This document shows positions 40,508 to 58,118 of a stretch of DNA of 64,000 bases, piece after piece. The notes under the pieces were generated by a model. That model did not search any database, was not told where the DNA came from, and saw nothing but the letters and a program-made list of their open reading frames with translations. The DNA lies in assembly GCF_019649055.1 (NCBI RefSeq), contig NW_026570283.1:744001-808000 (forward strand). The letters are read 5' to 3'. Each line of letters begins with the position of its first letter. Position 1 is the first letter of the stretch. The position numbers and the translations under genes were made by a program. This stretch comes from Paramacrobiotus metropolitanus (Eukaryota > Tardigrada > Eutardigrada > Parachela > Macrobiotidae).

Positions 40508-41978
40508 TCAGTCTGTCGCGTCAGTACGGTAGGTTGTTATTCTGGATATAATATTAATTTTCATACGAGTATTAATGAGTGTCGACTTTACCCTAATGAT
40601 CCATTCGCCTTCGCAGTGCTGACAAAGTAAAGCCAACAGCACAACAGCAAGAACCGTTAGCAAAATAATTCCGAAAGCTATTCCTGCCGCGACCCCTTCC
40701 GAAAAGCCTGCAGAAGCAATGCCATCAAAAACTTCCAGCCTAGAAAAAAGACATAATGCTGAATCTTGCGTTGTTTACTGGGTTCTTCAAAGGCAGTGGA
40801 AATAACTGTTGTGTCGTTCGGGGCTGTAAAGTCACAAAAACGTTTTTTTAGCAAGATGCATGATGTTGTGCTCTAAGGATCTAAATATGTACACTGCATG
40901 GTTTCCGGATAAAGGATGTAGTCTTTGGTCTGGTGGTGAATATTGACGATAAGCTTGTAGTCCAGATCGAAGTAGCCATTTGACCGGGCGCAATTTAACA
41001 GGGAGTTGGCGGCCAGGGCGGCTGCGTAAGTTAGTCTTCTATATCCGTCCCCTATACGAGTAGTATACGTATGTCAACCAGCTGCTGTTTATTATTAAAA
41101 ACTGAGCAGACGGTTATGGAAATTATCAAGGCCACCAACTGCGCAGCCCCACGTTGCTCGCATTTTACCCCAGTCTCACGCTTCGCACCAAAAATAAGAA
41201 ACTGTTAACAAACTCCTACCTGATACAGGAATATTCTCGATGAAGGCAGTTACAAGAGCGTGTTCATCGTAATCACGATGGTACTGCGCTCGGCGATCCC
41301 AGCCGCGTCCTTCAAAAACACTACCGTCCATGCCAATAAGGAAGCTAAGAAAAAAATAACTTTTTGTGTCCGCCTAATCATCCTTGATAATGGGCGTAAT
41401 TATTACTTGTAGAAGATTTCCGGTACAAAATTTGCTGCAGTCTGTGCCGTCCACGATGTGACATCGGTATGGAATTCACGGATGGCAAGCACCACGTCCC
41501 GACACGTTTCCCAACCCGTACAGGCTTCGCCCTGGGTGTGGGTGAACACCATATACGGCACGGGAGGGAGGAGATACGAGATGCTAGCGTTTAGCTCGGG
41601 AGTGCCCCACATGGACCCTGTGGTTATATTAACGCCTGGACAGTCCATGCTTGGTACACTACATTTTGTGCGTGGTGACGTCGCAACTATGAACACCAGT
41701 AGAAGTACTGCTGCAACGTTTGTATGGGTCAATCGGGTTATTAGGGCAGGCAAACAGAAATGTTGTAGCAGGTAACGCCGTAGTTGCGCTTCGTAATTGA
41801 TTTGGCCGTTGGATCGTTTGTTCAGTGAGCGAAGACGAACGACACAGTAATAACTATATGATAACGTAGACGGCTCGATGTGCTTTAACTGCGCAATATC
41901 GGCCGATAGCGGCAGGAAATATGCCGGCATGCTGCACCTTTGTGCAAATATTATGTCACTTTTTATCTCTACAAACAA
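40508..41978 (-). CDS. G2: single-pass membrane PGRP with very short tail
   Basis: Minus-strand exons: up to 41407 (PGRP N half; CPGVNIT, MVFTHTQGEAC), 41344-41220 ([16 protein letters not shown]), 41051-40893 (YAAALAANSLLNCARSNGY, IVNIHHQTKDYILYPE), 40823-40779 (linker with NDT), 40707-40592 (transmembrane GIAFGIILLTVLAVVLLALL). Phases agree throughout. His is present at the first zinc position, but the C-terminal amidase His and Cys are absent. After the membrane helix only about 7 to 30 residues follow, depending on use of a weak intron; no basic STRQ motif is seen. The ORF is open to 41978, but a splice acceptor near 41697 and a conserved block at 41934 suggest the true 5' end differs. 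Head to head with R2. Confidence 0.82.
41934..41953. promoter_or_regulatory. Conserved upstream block of pair G2/R2
   Basis: GCACCTTTGTGCAAATATTA, about 56 bp before the proposed R2 start codon (42009). Matches blocks at 8523 and 55539 upstream of pairs 1 and 4. Confidence 0.5.
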
Positions 41979-42008
41979 TTAACGGATAATGCCGGTGCGG
42001 CGATTTGG

Positions 42009-55235: not shown

Positions 55236-55762
55236 CTGTTCGTATGAGAAGCGATTAAAGGGCATCAGTACCAATCATCTCCCTAGTACAACATTAATTA
55301 ATGAATGACTTATGGCTTATGGTTGTGGTTCCGGCTTATTAGGCCAAAATACCGATGCAAAAGCCCATAGCTCCGACAGTTCCGGTTGCTAATCAAATTA
55401 TGGCACTGGATTGTTTGTTCATCCAGCAAAGTCAACCGACGTATTGATACAAACGATAGCGGCTCCGCTTGAGCTTGCATTCTGTCAATTTCTGTGATAG
55501 TACACGGAAGTCTACAGTTGTGTCAAAACTTATTCTTCCGCACTTTTGTGCAAATATTATTGTTAGGTTTTACCTGGGTTTAAAGACGCAGTTACCTAAT
55601 GTCAACACTGCGCCATGACCAGTACAAACAACTGATACCATAACAATGGGATAGTTTAGAATAGCGAATGATACATACCGTCACTGTGTCTTAATGATTA
55701 CGCTGCTTAGTAATAATATCACTGACGTCCGTAATACTTTGTAATTATTCTCGCTTCCGCAT
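55236..55762. promoter_or_regulatory. Shared upstream region of pair G4/R4
   Basis: Contains both conserved blocks: CGCACTTTTGTGCAAATATT at about 55539-55558 and CGCAGTTACCTAATGTCAAC at about 55587-55606, in the same order and orientation and at nearly the same spacing as upstream of pair 1. Confidence 0.5.
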
Positions 55763-58118
55763 ATGCAAAAGAAAACGGAACTGATACTGCATACAATGGC
55801 GACGACACTCTGCTCCGAAGTAGACATTATTCGGCGTTCGGTATGGGGCGCTCGACCTGCTCGGGAATGGGAGATGGTCAAACTGCCGCTACCCGCCACC
55901 TGCATGGTGTTTACTCATTCCTATGGTGCTTCCTGTTTCGATGCCCGCAACTGTTCCCTCATCACGCAGGCCATGCAGATCTATAATATGGACACAAACG
56001 AACATCCTGACATCCCTTACAAGTACATACGTCAATCACCTAAATAATTGCGGTTGTAAATTTGATACTGCAGAATTTTCGGGAGTAGCGGCACGACACT
56101 ATTTTCAGTGTTATCTATATAATACGGTAAATTTTCGACTGCGTCATCAGCTGGTACGCAATGGCTTATTTGCCGCAGTTTCTTGATTGGTTACGATGGA
56201 TCGGTTCTCGAGGGAAGAGGTTGGACCTTCAGACCACTCGTAAATCGCATGTACAACGAATACTGCTTCGGCGTAGCGCTTATCGGAAAGTATCCGCCAT
56301 CCGGAGATGACTTTACCAAAATGTCATATAAGACAGCCGCCTCAGCCAACGCTCTGATACAGTGCGCGCGCTCGCAAGGCTGGTTGGATCCGGTCAATCA
56401 TTCCGTAATGACCTTTCAGATTAACCCCATTATACGCAACTATATAGTCAGTCCCCATCTGCTTTTACGTAAGTGTTTGCTAGACTGCAAGAACACACTC
56501 ATAATGATCTGTTTTTTTATCTGCTTGTGGTAAAGCACCACCCGTTTTGCCCCCACCGCCACAAGAACCACAAGGTACATATGATGAGTGCCGATTACGT
56601 AAAATCGGCAGAATGAATTTGTACACATGCTTTTACTGCATTCACAGCGTTTCGCGACGGGTTCATCGCTGGATCGATTATCGCGCTGCTTATTGGCTTG
56701 ATCCTACTTGCTGTTGCGTATTGGCGGGGAAAACAACAACGCAACAGATACAAGGTATACACAAGTATGACAACACATACAAGAAAAAAAAAAGAAAGAC
56801 ATAAGAATATAAGAAGCAACGCAACAGATATAAAAGAGACAATGTATCAACCAACAGAAGTTGCTGGATACATTGTGTTTTTCCCAGATTTTTTTTCTTG
56901 TTATTGTAGCACTTTTGCCGCGCTATCGACTATCGTAACGAACTGCAGAAAAGTGTCCCAGCAGAAACAGTGGAGCGCTTCTTGATACCACGGCGCTCAA
57001 TCGACATAAGTAAACGAAAACCACCCATGAATAATACAGCCTTTTCCTGTAGTAACATTGCGTGTGGTTCTAGAGGATGAGCATTTGGGAAGCGGTCGCG
57101 ATGGTCATGTTCTCTTGGGTTCGATGCAGTGCAAAGACCTACGGCGTGGCAGTTGGTCATCCACTGAGACATCGCGTTCGTGCTCTGTGGCGGTAAAAAT
57201 GCTACGGGATCTCCCTAGAAACCAGTCAGCAACCAGCGCGTTCCTGTCCGAAATGAGCATTCTTATGAAAGTCGGACGACATAACAATATTGTCAATTTA
57301 GAGGGCGTGGTTCTGCAAGGTGCACCGAACCATCTTGACGACTGTAAATAAAATTAAACACCCAGCGTTGTAATGATGTCTTTTAGGGAAACTAATGATG
57401 GTTATGGAGCATTGCGAACTACGATCCTTAGAGTCCTATTTGCACAGTCTGCGAACCTCGAATCAACATGGACAATCCGAACCATTTAACCAGGATACCA
57501 CATCGGTTGAAGTATCGAAGGAACTGGTCAGTTTCGTCTACCAGATCAGCCGGGGCATGGAGTTCCTCGCCAGCAAAAGCATCATCCATCGGGATTTGGC
57601 CGCACGCAATGTGCTTTTGGATGCGCAGAAAGTGGCTAAGATCGCCGATTTCGGGATGGCCAAGGAGCTGCCTGTATACACGCTGGAGCGCGACAAAGTA
57701 GTTTTGTAACCAACTCGCCAGCATTTCTGTGATATGCGGTTTTAGCAACAAATCCTGGTCTCGTCGAGGATCAAATAATGGCTAATAGTGTTGTTATCTG
57801 TAGGTTCCCTTGCCCGTCCGCTGGTTAGCTCCTGAATGCCTGCAGCCTAATCGTGCGGTCTTTTCCACCGCAAGCGACGTATGGTCTTTCGGCGTGGTCG
57901 TCTGGGAAATCTACACGTTCGGTTCGGAGCCGTACGCGGAGGTTTTTCCAAACGGCATCCTGTATGATCAGCTATGTGCTTTCCTTCGAGATGACTCCCG
58001 ACTGCACCTTCCGGCAACATGCCCCACCGATATGTAAGTTACCTGGCTACCCAGACAAGCGGATAACGGAACGATTTCTTGCAGCCGTCAAATAACTCGT
58101 GAATGCTGGGAATATTAG
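55763..58118 (+). CDS. R4: PGRP-ectodomain receptor tyrosine kinase, truncated in the C lobe
   Basis: Exons up to 56022 (Met 55763 or 55796), 56179-56468, 56536-56574, 56648-56754, 56910-57009, 57074-57319, 57387-57697, 57804-58033 and 58085-58118. From Met 55796 there are 527 codons. Ectodomain [32 protein letters not shown]; stalk [14 protein letters not shown]; transmembrane [18 protein letters not shown]. Kinase motifs up to [16 protein letters not shown] are all present. In the last exon the frame stops at TAG 58116-58118 directly after ECWEY, so the end of the C lobe (the ERRPSF segment) and the conserved C-terminal tail are lost. An hAT-like element follows 18 bp later. Whether the truncated kinase folds is uncertain. 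Confidence 0.85.

Follow-up and report, generated by a model that had tools for sequence, protein, structure and literature searches.

The window, a 64,000-nucleotide stretch of the genome of the tardigrade Paramacrobiotus metropolitanus, contains four paralogous units by self-comparison (about 5.6-12.1, 40.4-45.1, 46.0-52.2 and 53.9-58.1 kb). Exon models in which all junctions are GT-AG and phases are conserved place in each unit a plus-strand gene R, laid out as PGRP, stalk, transmembrane (TM) segment and tyrosine kinase, and a minus-strand gene G, laid out as PGRP, stalk, TM segment and short tail. These four pairs are arranged head-to-head, as is a fifth on contig C6, and the start-to-start distance between G and R is 536-729 bp in all five. 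The features of the window are:

5498-8269, minus strand: G1, kinase-less PGRP membrane gene (exon model); coding exons 8028-8269, 7833-7957 and 7580-7741, TM exon 7243-7355, putative tail exon 5498-5641.
8270-8817, no strand: shared region of pair 1, 548 bp start to start; conserved islands 8439-8486, 8519-8542 and 8590-8611.
8818-12100, plus strand: R1, PGRP-TM-tyrosine kinase gene with frameshifts in three or more exons, a pseudogene (exon model).
40444-41648, minus strand: G2; exons 41407-41648, 41220-41344 and 40893-41051, TM exon 40592-40707.
41649-42184, no strand: shared region of pair 2, 536 bp start to start; conserved islands 41816-41829 and 41934-41954.
42185-45087, plus strand: R2, intact PGRP-stalk-TM-kinase gene of nine exons, 589 aa; NCBI P0003, named KIT-like.
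45962-47380, minus strand: G3; exons 47139-47380, 46938-47062 and 46710-46871, TM exon 46413-46525.
47381-48088, no strand: shared region of pair 3, 708 bp start to start; a single conserved island by BLAST, 47734-47749.
48089-52233, plus strand: R3, intact PGRP-stalk-TM-kinase gene of nine exons, 592 aa; NCBI P0001.
53851-55233, minus strand: G4; exons 54992-55233, 54809-54933 and 54560-54721, TM exon 54233-54345, tail exon 53851-53919.
55234-55795, no strand: shared region of pair 4, 562 bp start to start; conserved islands 55379-55421, 55535-55558 and 55586-55607.
55796-58118, plus strand: R4, PGRP-stalk-TM-kinase gene with its last exon cut; NCBI P0002.

The intergenic islands of the C63 units comprise 16-24 bp at 95-100% identity amid otherwise diverged sequence, and none was found in unit 5 on contig C6. 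Eleven P. metropolitanus RefSeq proteins (P0001-P0005 and P0007-P0012) correspond to the five pairs, two of them being forms of G4. The R3 model is identical to P0001 over 592 residues. The short tail of G2 matches P0010; G3, with a longer and variable tail, has its counterpart in P0007 (313 aa), G4 in P0008 and the isoform P0012, and G1 in P0011 (193 aa), which holds the three PGRP exons only and misses the TM segment. RefSeq gives isoforms for R4 as well as for G4. The R4 model ends at CWEY, ahead of the last kinase subdomain; in P0002 the start is placed 11 codons upstream and the short end differs. The R1 frame breaks in one PGRP exon, in the juxtamembrane exon and in one C-lobe exon, and its NCBI protein, P0005, is a 410-aa mis-model. 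NCBI names are inconsistent: R3 is called 'insulin-like growth factor 1 receptor', R2 KIT-like, and R4 and R5 kin-16, with FGFR2-like also in use. Exon order, phases, and the stalk and TM exons are the same in R2, R3, R4 and R5. An unpaired PGRP-kinase, C89a, has the same order in an open 590-aa frame with one extra PGRP intron, its stalk not being resolved.

A Pfam tyrosine kinase match was obtained for three of three R proteins (PF07714; 6e-67 for R3 and 2.8e-71 for R2), and the best 60 solved chains for the R kinase were EGFR, PDGFRA, KIT and FGFR kinases. The glycine loop, VAVK lysine, alpha-C glutamate, HRDLAARN and DFG are present in all four proteins checked (R2, R3, R4 and C89a). Between ectodomain and kinase lies a single TM segment, called from sequence reading as about 21 hydrophobic residues with a basic flank on the kinase side, and its exon is conserved in R1-R5. 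The TM exons of G and R alike begin F-x-[DE]-G-x-x-A-G, a small-xxx-small motif of the kind that can pack TM helices; similar starts occur in unpaired family members. By hydropathy, none of 17 genes examined has a recognisable signal peptide, the initial Met adjoining the PGRP domain. When the four start-to-start regions were scanned for conservation and for Met-led hydrophobic frames, no candidate recurred consistently across copies. Only in G2 is there an upstream frame, open for 110 codons, in which a strongly hydrophobic run lies some 23 codons ahead of the Met; the upstream frames of G1, G3, R2, R3 and R4 contain nothing as hydrophobic. In the unpaired C89a, C118b and C118c, an in-frame stop lies just upstream of the Met with no AG between. 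Given these stops and the conservation of the Met in 17 of 17 genes, a missed signal-peptide exon is less likely; with no recognisable signal peptide, export of the domain of about 175 aa would depend either solely on the TM helix or on a missed exon. The cysteine pair, sequons and TM flank charge suggest that the PGRP domain lies outside, N-out, without a cleaved signal peptide.

Among solved chains, human PGRP-I-alpha was matched by R3 residues 9-150 (5.9e-23) and, in the same chain, by G1 (7.6e-16), and among the matches listed for these two queries, 26 distinct chains each, all were PGRPs. Pfam alone is weak for the PGRP domains of this family. A genome-wide Amidase_2 search missed the window entirely, its sole hit being a gene on contig C25, and seven of eight assembled proteins matched Amidase_2, four reaching the curated cut-off. 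At E<=0.001, four G proteins carry Amidase_2 alone and G2 has no match. A Foldseek search with a moderate model of G4 (mean pLDDT 62) gave 36 matches at E<=0.001, all PGRPs, at modest TM-scores of 0.35-0.43 by query length; the AlphaFold model of R3, of low quality (mean pLDDT 45), was left out of the analysis. At the aligned position that we take to be the first amidase zinc ligand, His is found in one of 23 rows (the separate gene on C25) and Thr or Arg in the other 22. Loss of this ligand predicts that the R and G domains are non-catalytic. The PGRP cysteine pair is conserved in 22 of 23 rows, and in the alignment the domain diverges in its C-terminal part.

The sequence-only reading had proposed that every PGRP-kinase gene has a divergent kinase-less PGRP gene upstream, that the pair is the unit of duplication, and that the two ectodomains are similar. 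The arrangement was confirmed for the four pairs in the window by exon models. It holds throughout one clade, whereas genome-wide only five of 13 PGRP-kinase loci are paired; the other eight, in two plus-strand arrays, have no G, and kinase-less PGRP loci on contig C51 stand alone. Duplication as a pair is borne out by the PGRP domains of G and R, which fall into two separate clades, one for G and one for R (100/100 each), in a tree of five pairs from two contigs, and the pair is therefore older than the duplications. Similarity of the ectodomains was overstated: G and R proteins are 32-39% identical, G ectodomains are strongly diverged from those of R and have an additional loop of roughly nine residues, and sisterhood of the two PGRP clades is unproven, a joint G+R clade being neither shown nor rejected (p-AU 0.29). 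The PGRP match on C58 is absent from all trees.

Two simpler origins of G were considered. That G is a copy of the adjacent R was rejected because of the separate PGRP clades, and behind G there is no sign of kinase remnants that recent truncation of an R in place would have left; on C63, the genome-wide kinase search, which scored 120 of 622 first-look candidates and so was not exhaustive, found nothing on the minus strand. In the kinase tree (16 rows minus C26 and C4, which were long, badly aligned and distorting; R1 and C89b not included), a single clade of PGRP-kinases excluding the C37 kinase was weakly rejected on few rows (p-AU 0.031). The ectodomain of the C37 kinase matches LRR only weakly, short of the curated cut-off.

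Congruence between G and R trees, which had been suggested as a check on co-duplication, was partial. The split of units {1,4} from {2,3,5} was recovered in four of eight nucleotide partitions, namely G PGRP (bootstrap 96), R TM plus juxtamembrane (79), R kinase N-lobe (100) and the whole R kinase (93), with the N-lobe nested in the last of these; the split was absent from R PGRP, G TM, kinase middle and kinase C-lobe. The placement of pair 5 varies between gene parts, the R PGRP protein tree groups R2 with R4 (96/93), and the R PGRP domain and kinase C-lobe depart from the G tree. Distances among G PGRP domains correlate with those of R TM plus juxtamembrane (r 0.90, equalled or exceeded in 2 of 120 permutations) and R kinase (r 0.78; 6 of 120), and weakly with those of R PGRP (r 0.73; 22 of 120). 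Both G and R are under purifying selection, with dN/dS of 0.09-0.16 for G PGRP (8 of 10 pairs with finite dS) and, across R2-R5 with R1 excluded, 0.07-0.10 for R PGRP (3 of 6) and 0.10-0.19 for R kinase (5 of 6). Between pairs, dS is mostly above 1.

By analogy with Drosophila PGRP-LF beside PGRP-LC, we propose, at a probability of about 0.5, that R is a peptidoglycan-sensing receptor tyrosine kinase (RTK) and G its signalling-dead partner. An extracellular non-catalytic PGRP joined to a kinase would give R a one-protein route from cell-wall fragment to tyrosine phosphorylation, presumably with peptidoglycan as ligand and through dimerisation of R. G has the layout of R (PGRP, stalk and related TM helix) with only a short, fast-changing tail. 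The two genes would first have settled head-to-head about a single promoter region, and the pair was copied as a whole thereafter. Probably co-expressed with R, G may contact it by pairing with R ectodomains, or may capture ligand, and would so set the kinase threshold, the presumed effect being inhibitory. Against partnership, eight PGRP-kinase loci do without G; and, with R1 dead and G1 still open, G need not serve the adjoining R.

In Drosophila, the PGRP-LC/LF/LA cluster likewise places a membrane PGRP without a signalling module next to a signalling PGRP receptor of the membrane, and G1-G5 show the PGRP-LF-like arrangement of a membrane PGRP with no signalling domain adjoining a receptor gene. 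In the cited passages, PGRP-LF lies within the PGRP-LC cluster, reportedly does not bind peptidoglycan and blocks PGRP-LC dimerisation (PMC3724876, PMC9496462). Unlike R, whose effector is a covalently attached tyrosine kinase, PGRP-LC has a RHIM-bearing tail, acts through the Imd/NF-kB pathway and lacks an intrinsic kinase. The PGRP domain of PGRP-LC lies on the C-terminal side of the TM segment, whereas that of R and G is N-terminal, and G and R form a divergent pair that has been duplicated whole. KIT, PDGFR and FGFR (class III/FGFR-like RTKs) resemble R in the sequence of the catalytic domain and its active-kinase motifs, but their ectodomains are immunoglobulin-like, and that of R is a PGRP without a signal peptide that can be recognised. 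A small ectodomain and a lineage-specific expansion may liken nematode KIN-16-type receptor kinases to R; KIN-16 is not known to have a PGRP domain. Paired immune receptors (Siglec-11/-16) and plant NLR pairs, as partial accounts describe them, also join related ectodomains or partners of unequal signalling capacity; they belong to protein families other than those of the putative G/R receptor pair.

Alternatively, G could be a positive co-receptor that binds one ligand together with R, in the manner of PGRP-LCx and PGRP-LCa with tracheal cytotoxin, R clustering then requiring G. Purifying selection on the PGRP domain of both partners and the shared TM motif are consistent with such a role, and PGRP-LCa is a non-binding co-receptor of LCx in the section cited (PMC3724876). 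It is nevertheless doubtful, as PGRP-kinases without a partner exist, similar motifs also begin the TM segment of unpaired members, so that the motif is not pair-specific, and a kinase-less partner in a two-kinase reaction would, more simply, be an inhibitor. G and R might also be independent receptors, head-to-head by ancestry and copied in tandem as a block with no physical or functional pairing. The unproven sisterhood of their PGRPs, the decay of R1 but not G1 and the solitary loci on C51 agree with this, but it is unlikely given an arrangement held in five of five pairs, the C6 pair included, at dS mostly above 1, and the islands conserved on C63. It is similarly improbable that the ectodomain no longer binds peptidoglycan and that R is a developmental or tissue receptor with an endogenous ligand. 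The missing zinc ligand, the divergent C-terminal part and the LRR-like ectodomain of the same-family C37 kinase point that way; however, non-catalytic PGRPs such as PGRP-LC often still bind peptidoglycan, and a lineage-specific expansion to about 13 loci in tandem arrays is typical of immune receptors. An assembly or annotation artefact fusing adjacent PGRP and kinase genes, to which the inconsistent NCBI names could be attributed, is highly improbable in view of the exon structure constant across R2-R5, the same order in C89a, and independently made NCBI models that agree, for R3 letter for letter.

Insect PGRPs signal via adaptor pathways ending in NF-kB. Tardigrades, in the portions of the survey cited, have no NF-kB, Relish or Toll intracellular components and few Imd genes, PGRPs being kept in most eutardigrades examined (PMC7056985). 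The same portions describe the JNK and Tir-1 pathways as conserved in tardigrades (PMC7056985), and routes other than the PGRP-kinase therefore exist. Tentatively, tardigrades lacking these components may have replaced the post-PGRP route by a sensor-kinase fusion; the approximately 13 loci would then form a lineage-specific immune RTK repertoire, with every kinase of one clade tuned by a co-transcribed PGRP partner that has no kinase.

Full-text searching on PGRP-kinase receptors and on tardigrade PGRPs and RTKs, with incomplete coverage, found no PGRP-tyrosine-kinase receptor. Database searches for relatives returned 6, 6 and 15 proteins, with PGRP and kinase Pfam domains together only in P0001-P0004, all from P. 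metropolitanus. These searches require shared 5-residue words, and the C89a query returned not a single P. metropolitanus protein, so absence elsewhere is weak evidence. The names IGF1 receptor, KIT-like, FGFR2-like and kin-16 conceal the PGRP part from annotation-based surveys. A PGRP and an active-looking tyrosine kinase in one protein offer a concrete, testable answer to how tardigrades respond to bacteria. With a receptor of this design an animal might detect bacteria directly by way of a kinase, and the divergent partner without a kinase provides a natural system for the origin and upkeep of immune receptor pairs.

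Self-comparison of the window resolved four related units, at ~5.6–12.1, 40.4–45.1, 46.0–52.2 and 53.9–58.1 kb. Each consists of one minus-strand gene encoding a kinase-less PGRP (G) and one plus-strand gene encoding a PGRP-kinase (R), with start codons 536–708 bp apart. In exon models built from conserved frames and GT-AG junctions, R has nine exons, covering the PGRP domain (two), a short proline-rich stalk, a transmembrane (TM) helix, a juxtamembrane exon and the tyrosine kinase (four). G comprises three PGRP exons, a stalk (shown by NCBI's G2, G3 and G4 models), a TM exon that opens like that of R and a variable short tail; the G1 TM exon is present in our model and absent from the NCBI protein. 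R4 stops at CWEY, upstream of the last kinase subdomain. R1 (8818–12100, plus strand) is a frameshifted PGRP-kinase, with its frame broken in one PGRP exon, the juxtamembrane exon and one C-lobe exon, and represented at NCBI, despite the frameshifts, by a 410-aa FGFR2-like protein; its partner G1 is still open. A stretch of ~149 bp, 86% identical between its two copies, lies downstream of R1 (13659–13806) and R3 (52282–52430), on the plus strand. Other features of the window are:

1921–4071, minus strand: LINE-like reverse-transcriptase ORF (RVT_1)
17046–17119 and 18729–18802: exact 74-bp repeats flanking the PNMA/gag-like ORF
17197–18675, minus strand: ORF of 493 aa that carries a zinc knuckle and weakly matches PNMA/gag
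19378–21873, plus strand: astacin metalloprotease ORF
28086–29906, plus strand: LINE-like reverse-transcriptase ORF (RVT_1)
34312–35658, plus strand: astacin metalloprotease ORF with a weak leucine-rich-repeat match
59393–60266: GC-rich tandem repeat with 9.5 copies of a 93-bp unit, ~92% matches

By sequence comparison with solved structures, both ectodomains are clearly assignable to the PGRPs. R3 and G1 matched human PGRP-I-alpha (5.9e-23 and 7.6e-16, respectively), and all 26 structure chains listed for each query were PGRPs, as were all 36 structures matched at E<=0.001 by the predicted model of G4, with modest TM-scores. Pfam Amidase_2 operates near its limit here: four of eight assembled proteins reached its cut-off, and its genome-wide search matched on contig C25 only, in which the gene retains the His-His of catalytic PGRPs. 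The R kinase was nearest, among the matches listed, to those of EGFR, PDGFRA, KIT and FGFR, and the glycine loop, VAVK, alpha-C Glu, HRDLAARN and DFG were found in all four proteins checked (R2, R3, R4 and C89a, from contig C89). The R3 model is identical over 592 residues to a RefSeq protein named 'insulin-like growth factor 1 receptor'; RefSeq names R2 'mast/stem cell growth factor receptor kita-like', R1 'fibroblast growth factor receptor 2-like' and both R4 and the contig C6 copy 'kin-16'. Protein searches with R3, scored over the PGRP-TM-juxtamembrane region, returned six proteins, of which five belong to the tardigrade Paramacrobiotus metropolitanus; those with G3 returned six, all from this species (four PGRP-like by name, two uncharacterised).

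In all 17 genes examined, the first PGRP cysteine follows the start Met at residue 3 to 6, and no strongly hydrophobic stretch was found in the first 34 residues; C89a and two loci on contig C118 (C118b and C118c) have an in-frame upstream stop, with no AG in between. Upstream of G2, the frame at 41649–41978 (minus strand) is open for 110 codons and has a strongly hydrophobic stretch ~23 codons before the Met, possibly a signal peptide or chance; the other copies checked have no comparable upstream stretch. Given a disulfide-type cysteine pair (22 of the 23 rows having that exon), sequons (NIT in 5/5 G, NCS in 5/5 R) and a basic stretch on the kinase side of the TM helix, the sequences tentatively point to an outside PGRP domain, which the TM helix itself would place there.

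The sequence-only reading placed a divergent G upstream of every PGRP-kinase. This holds for the four window units and for C6, where the PGRP-kinase has a divergent G of its own (start codons 729 bp apart), but not for eight loci elsewhere. Exon maps of the fetched stretches gave 13 PGRP-kinase loci: four lie in the window, C6 has one, C89 five and C118 three, two of the last being less certain (C118a, first exon missing within the fetched stretch; C118c, PGRP and kinase parts ~4.5 kb apart). The eight loci on C89 (L073–L077) and C118 (L078–L081) lie in two arrays on the plus strand and lack a divergent partner; genome searches with the R3 ectodomain and G1 found no G on either contig, all PGRP matches being on the plus strand. 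Across the 170 Mb assembly, the R3 ectodomain, TM and juxtamembrane query had at least 73 matches, G1 at least 59 and the R2 kinase at least 149 (120 of 622 candidates scored), all lower bounds. Kinase-less PGRP genes on contigs C51 (four loci with N-terminal extensions, L082–L084 and L015; TM-like segments in all three checked) and C388 (L085) constitute another group of kinase-less genes, distinct from G.

The proposal that the pair is the duplication unit was borne out. A tree of 24 PGRP domains placed the five G in one clade and the five R in another (100/100 each), the two not being adjacent, so that both lineages predate the five pairs; their joint grouping is neither supported nor rejected (p-AU 0.29). 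Congruence of G and R trees, anticipated under co-duplication, was partial. Eight partitions were analysed as nucleotide trees. The split {1,4}|{2,3,5} was recovered for G PGRP (96), R TM plus juxtamembrane (79), R kinase N-lobe (100) and the whole kinase (93, a partition containing the N-lobe), but not for R PGRP, G TM, kinase middle or kinase C-lobe. Distances in G PGRP correlate with those in R TM plus juxtamembrane (r 0.90; 2/120 permutations as high) and R kinase (r 0.78; 6/120); for R PGRP the correlation is not significant (r 0.73; 22/120). The R2 and R3 C-lobes (44135–45091 and 51315–52237) are unusually similar (distance 0.11, versus about 0.3 elsewhere), as after gene conversion, and R2 and R4 are united in the R PGRP protein tree (96/93); both would follow from saturation or from exchange among the R genes.

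Pairwise dN/dS was 0.09–0.16 for G PGRP (finite in 8/10 pairs), 0.07–0.10 for R PGRP (3/6) and 0.10–0.19 for R kinase (5/6), rough values with dS mostly >1 and R1 left out. In BLAST comparisons, the DNA between the G and R start codons has diverged apart from short islands. Units 1 and 4 carry three of them in the same order, unit 2 has two of these three and unit 3 has one; none was found in the C6 pair (unit 5). CTTCCGCACCTTTGTGCAAATATT of unit 1 is the best of these islands and has counterparts in units 2 and 4, 95–100% identical. Five 10-mers, all falling in this element, are common to three of the five regions; 500 single-base shuffles gave 0.004 on average.

Peptidoglycan fragments would draw R ectodomains together, and the assembled kinases would phosphorylate one another. 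Most simply, G, which lacks a kinase and is related to R in its ectodomain and TM helix, probably lowers the signal, which it could dampen via dead complexes or ligand capture. The template is Drosophila PGRP-LF, likewise a membrane PGRP lacking the signalling part and encoded beside a receptor gene: according to passages of PMC3724876 and PMC9496462, it lacks the signalling motif, its gene belongs to the PGRP-LC cluster, and it binds the PGRP-LC ectodomain, with a proposed block of functional multimers. The same cluster supplies the analogy for a rival in which G would be a co-receptor, PGRP-LCa being described in a passage of PMC3724876 as a non-binding one. G1 survives next to the dead R1, which is compatible with a G whose targets are other R proteins or with one that works independently.

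Passages of an eight-tardigrade survey (PMC7056985) report PGRP homologues in eutardigrades only, Richtersius cf. coronifer excepted, a distantly related factor in place of NF-kB or Relish, no Toll intracellular components, few Imd genes and conserved JNK and Tir-1 pathways; those passages do not mention a kinase-bearing PGRP. In a word search, PGRP, peptidoglycan and tyrosine kinase were absent from the main text of the P. metropolitanus transcriptome paper (PMC11191345), and full-text literature searches aimed at the question returned no PGRP receptor tyrosine kinase among the matches listed. The PGRP module, the kinase module and receptor pairing are already known; the union of PGRP and kinase, and the divergent pair, are new as far as seen in the literature. 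On contig C37 (L086/L087, minus strand), the ectodomain frame of a kinase gene weakly matches LRR_8 (E 0.0039, below cut-off). No PGRP match was found in this gene and its kinase falls within the PGRP-kinases (support 85/80), which suggests that ectodomains have been swapped within a single lineage of tardigrade kinases.
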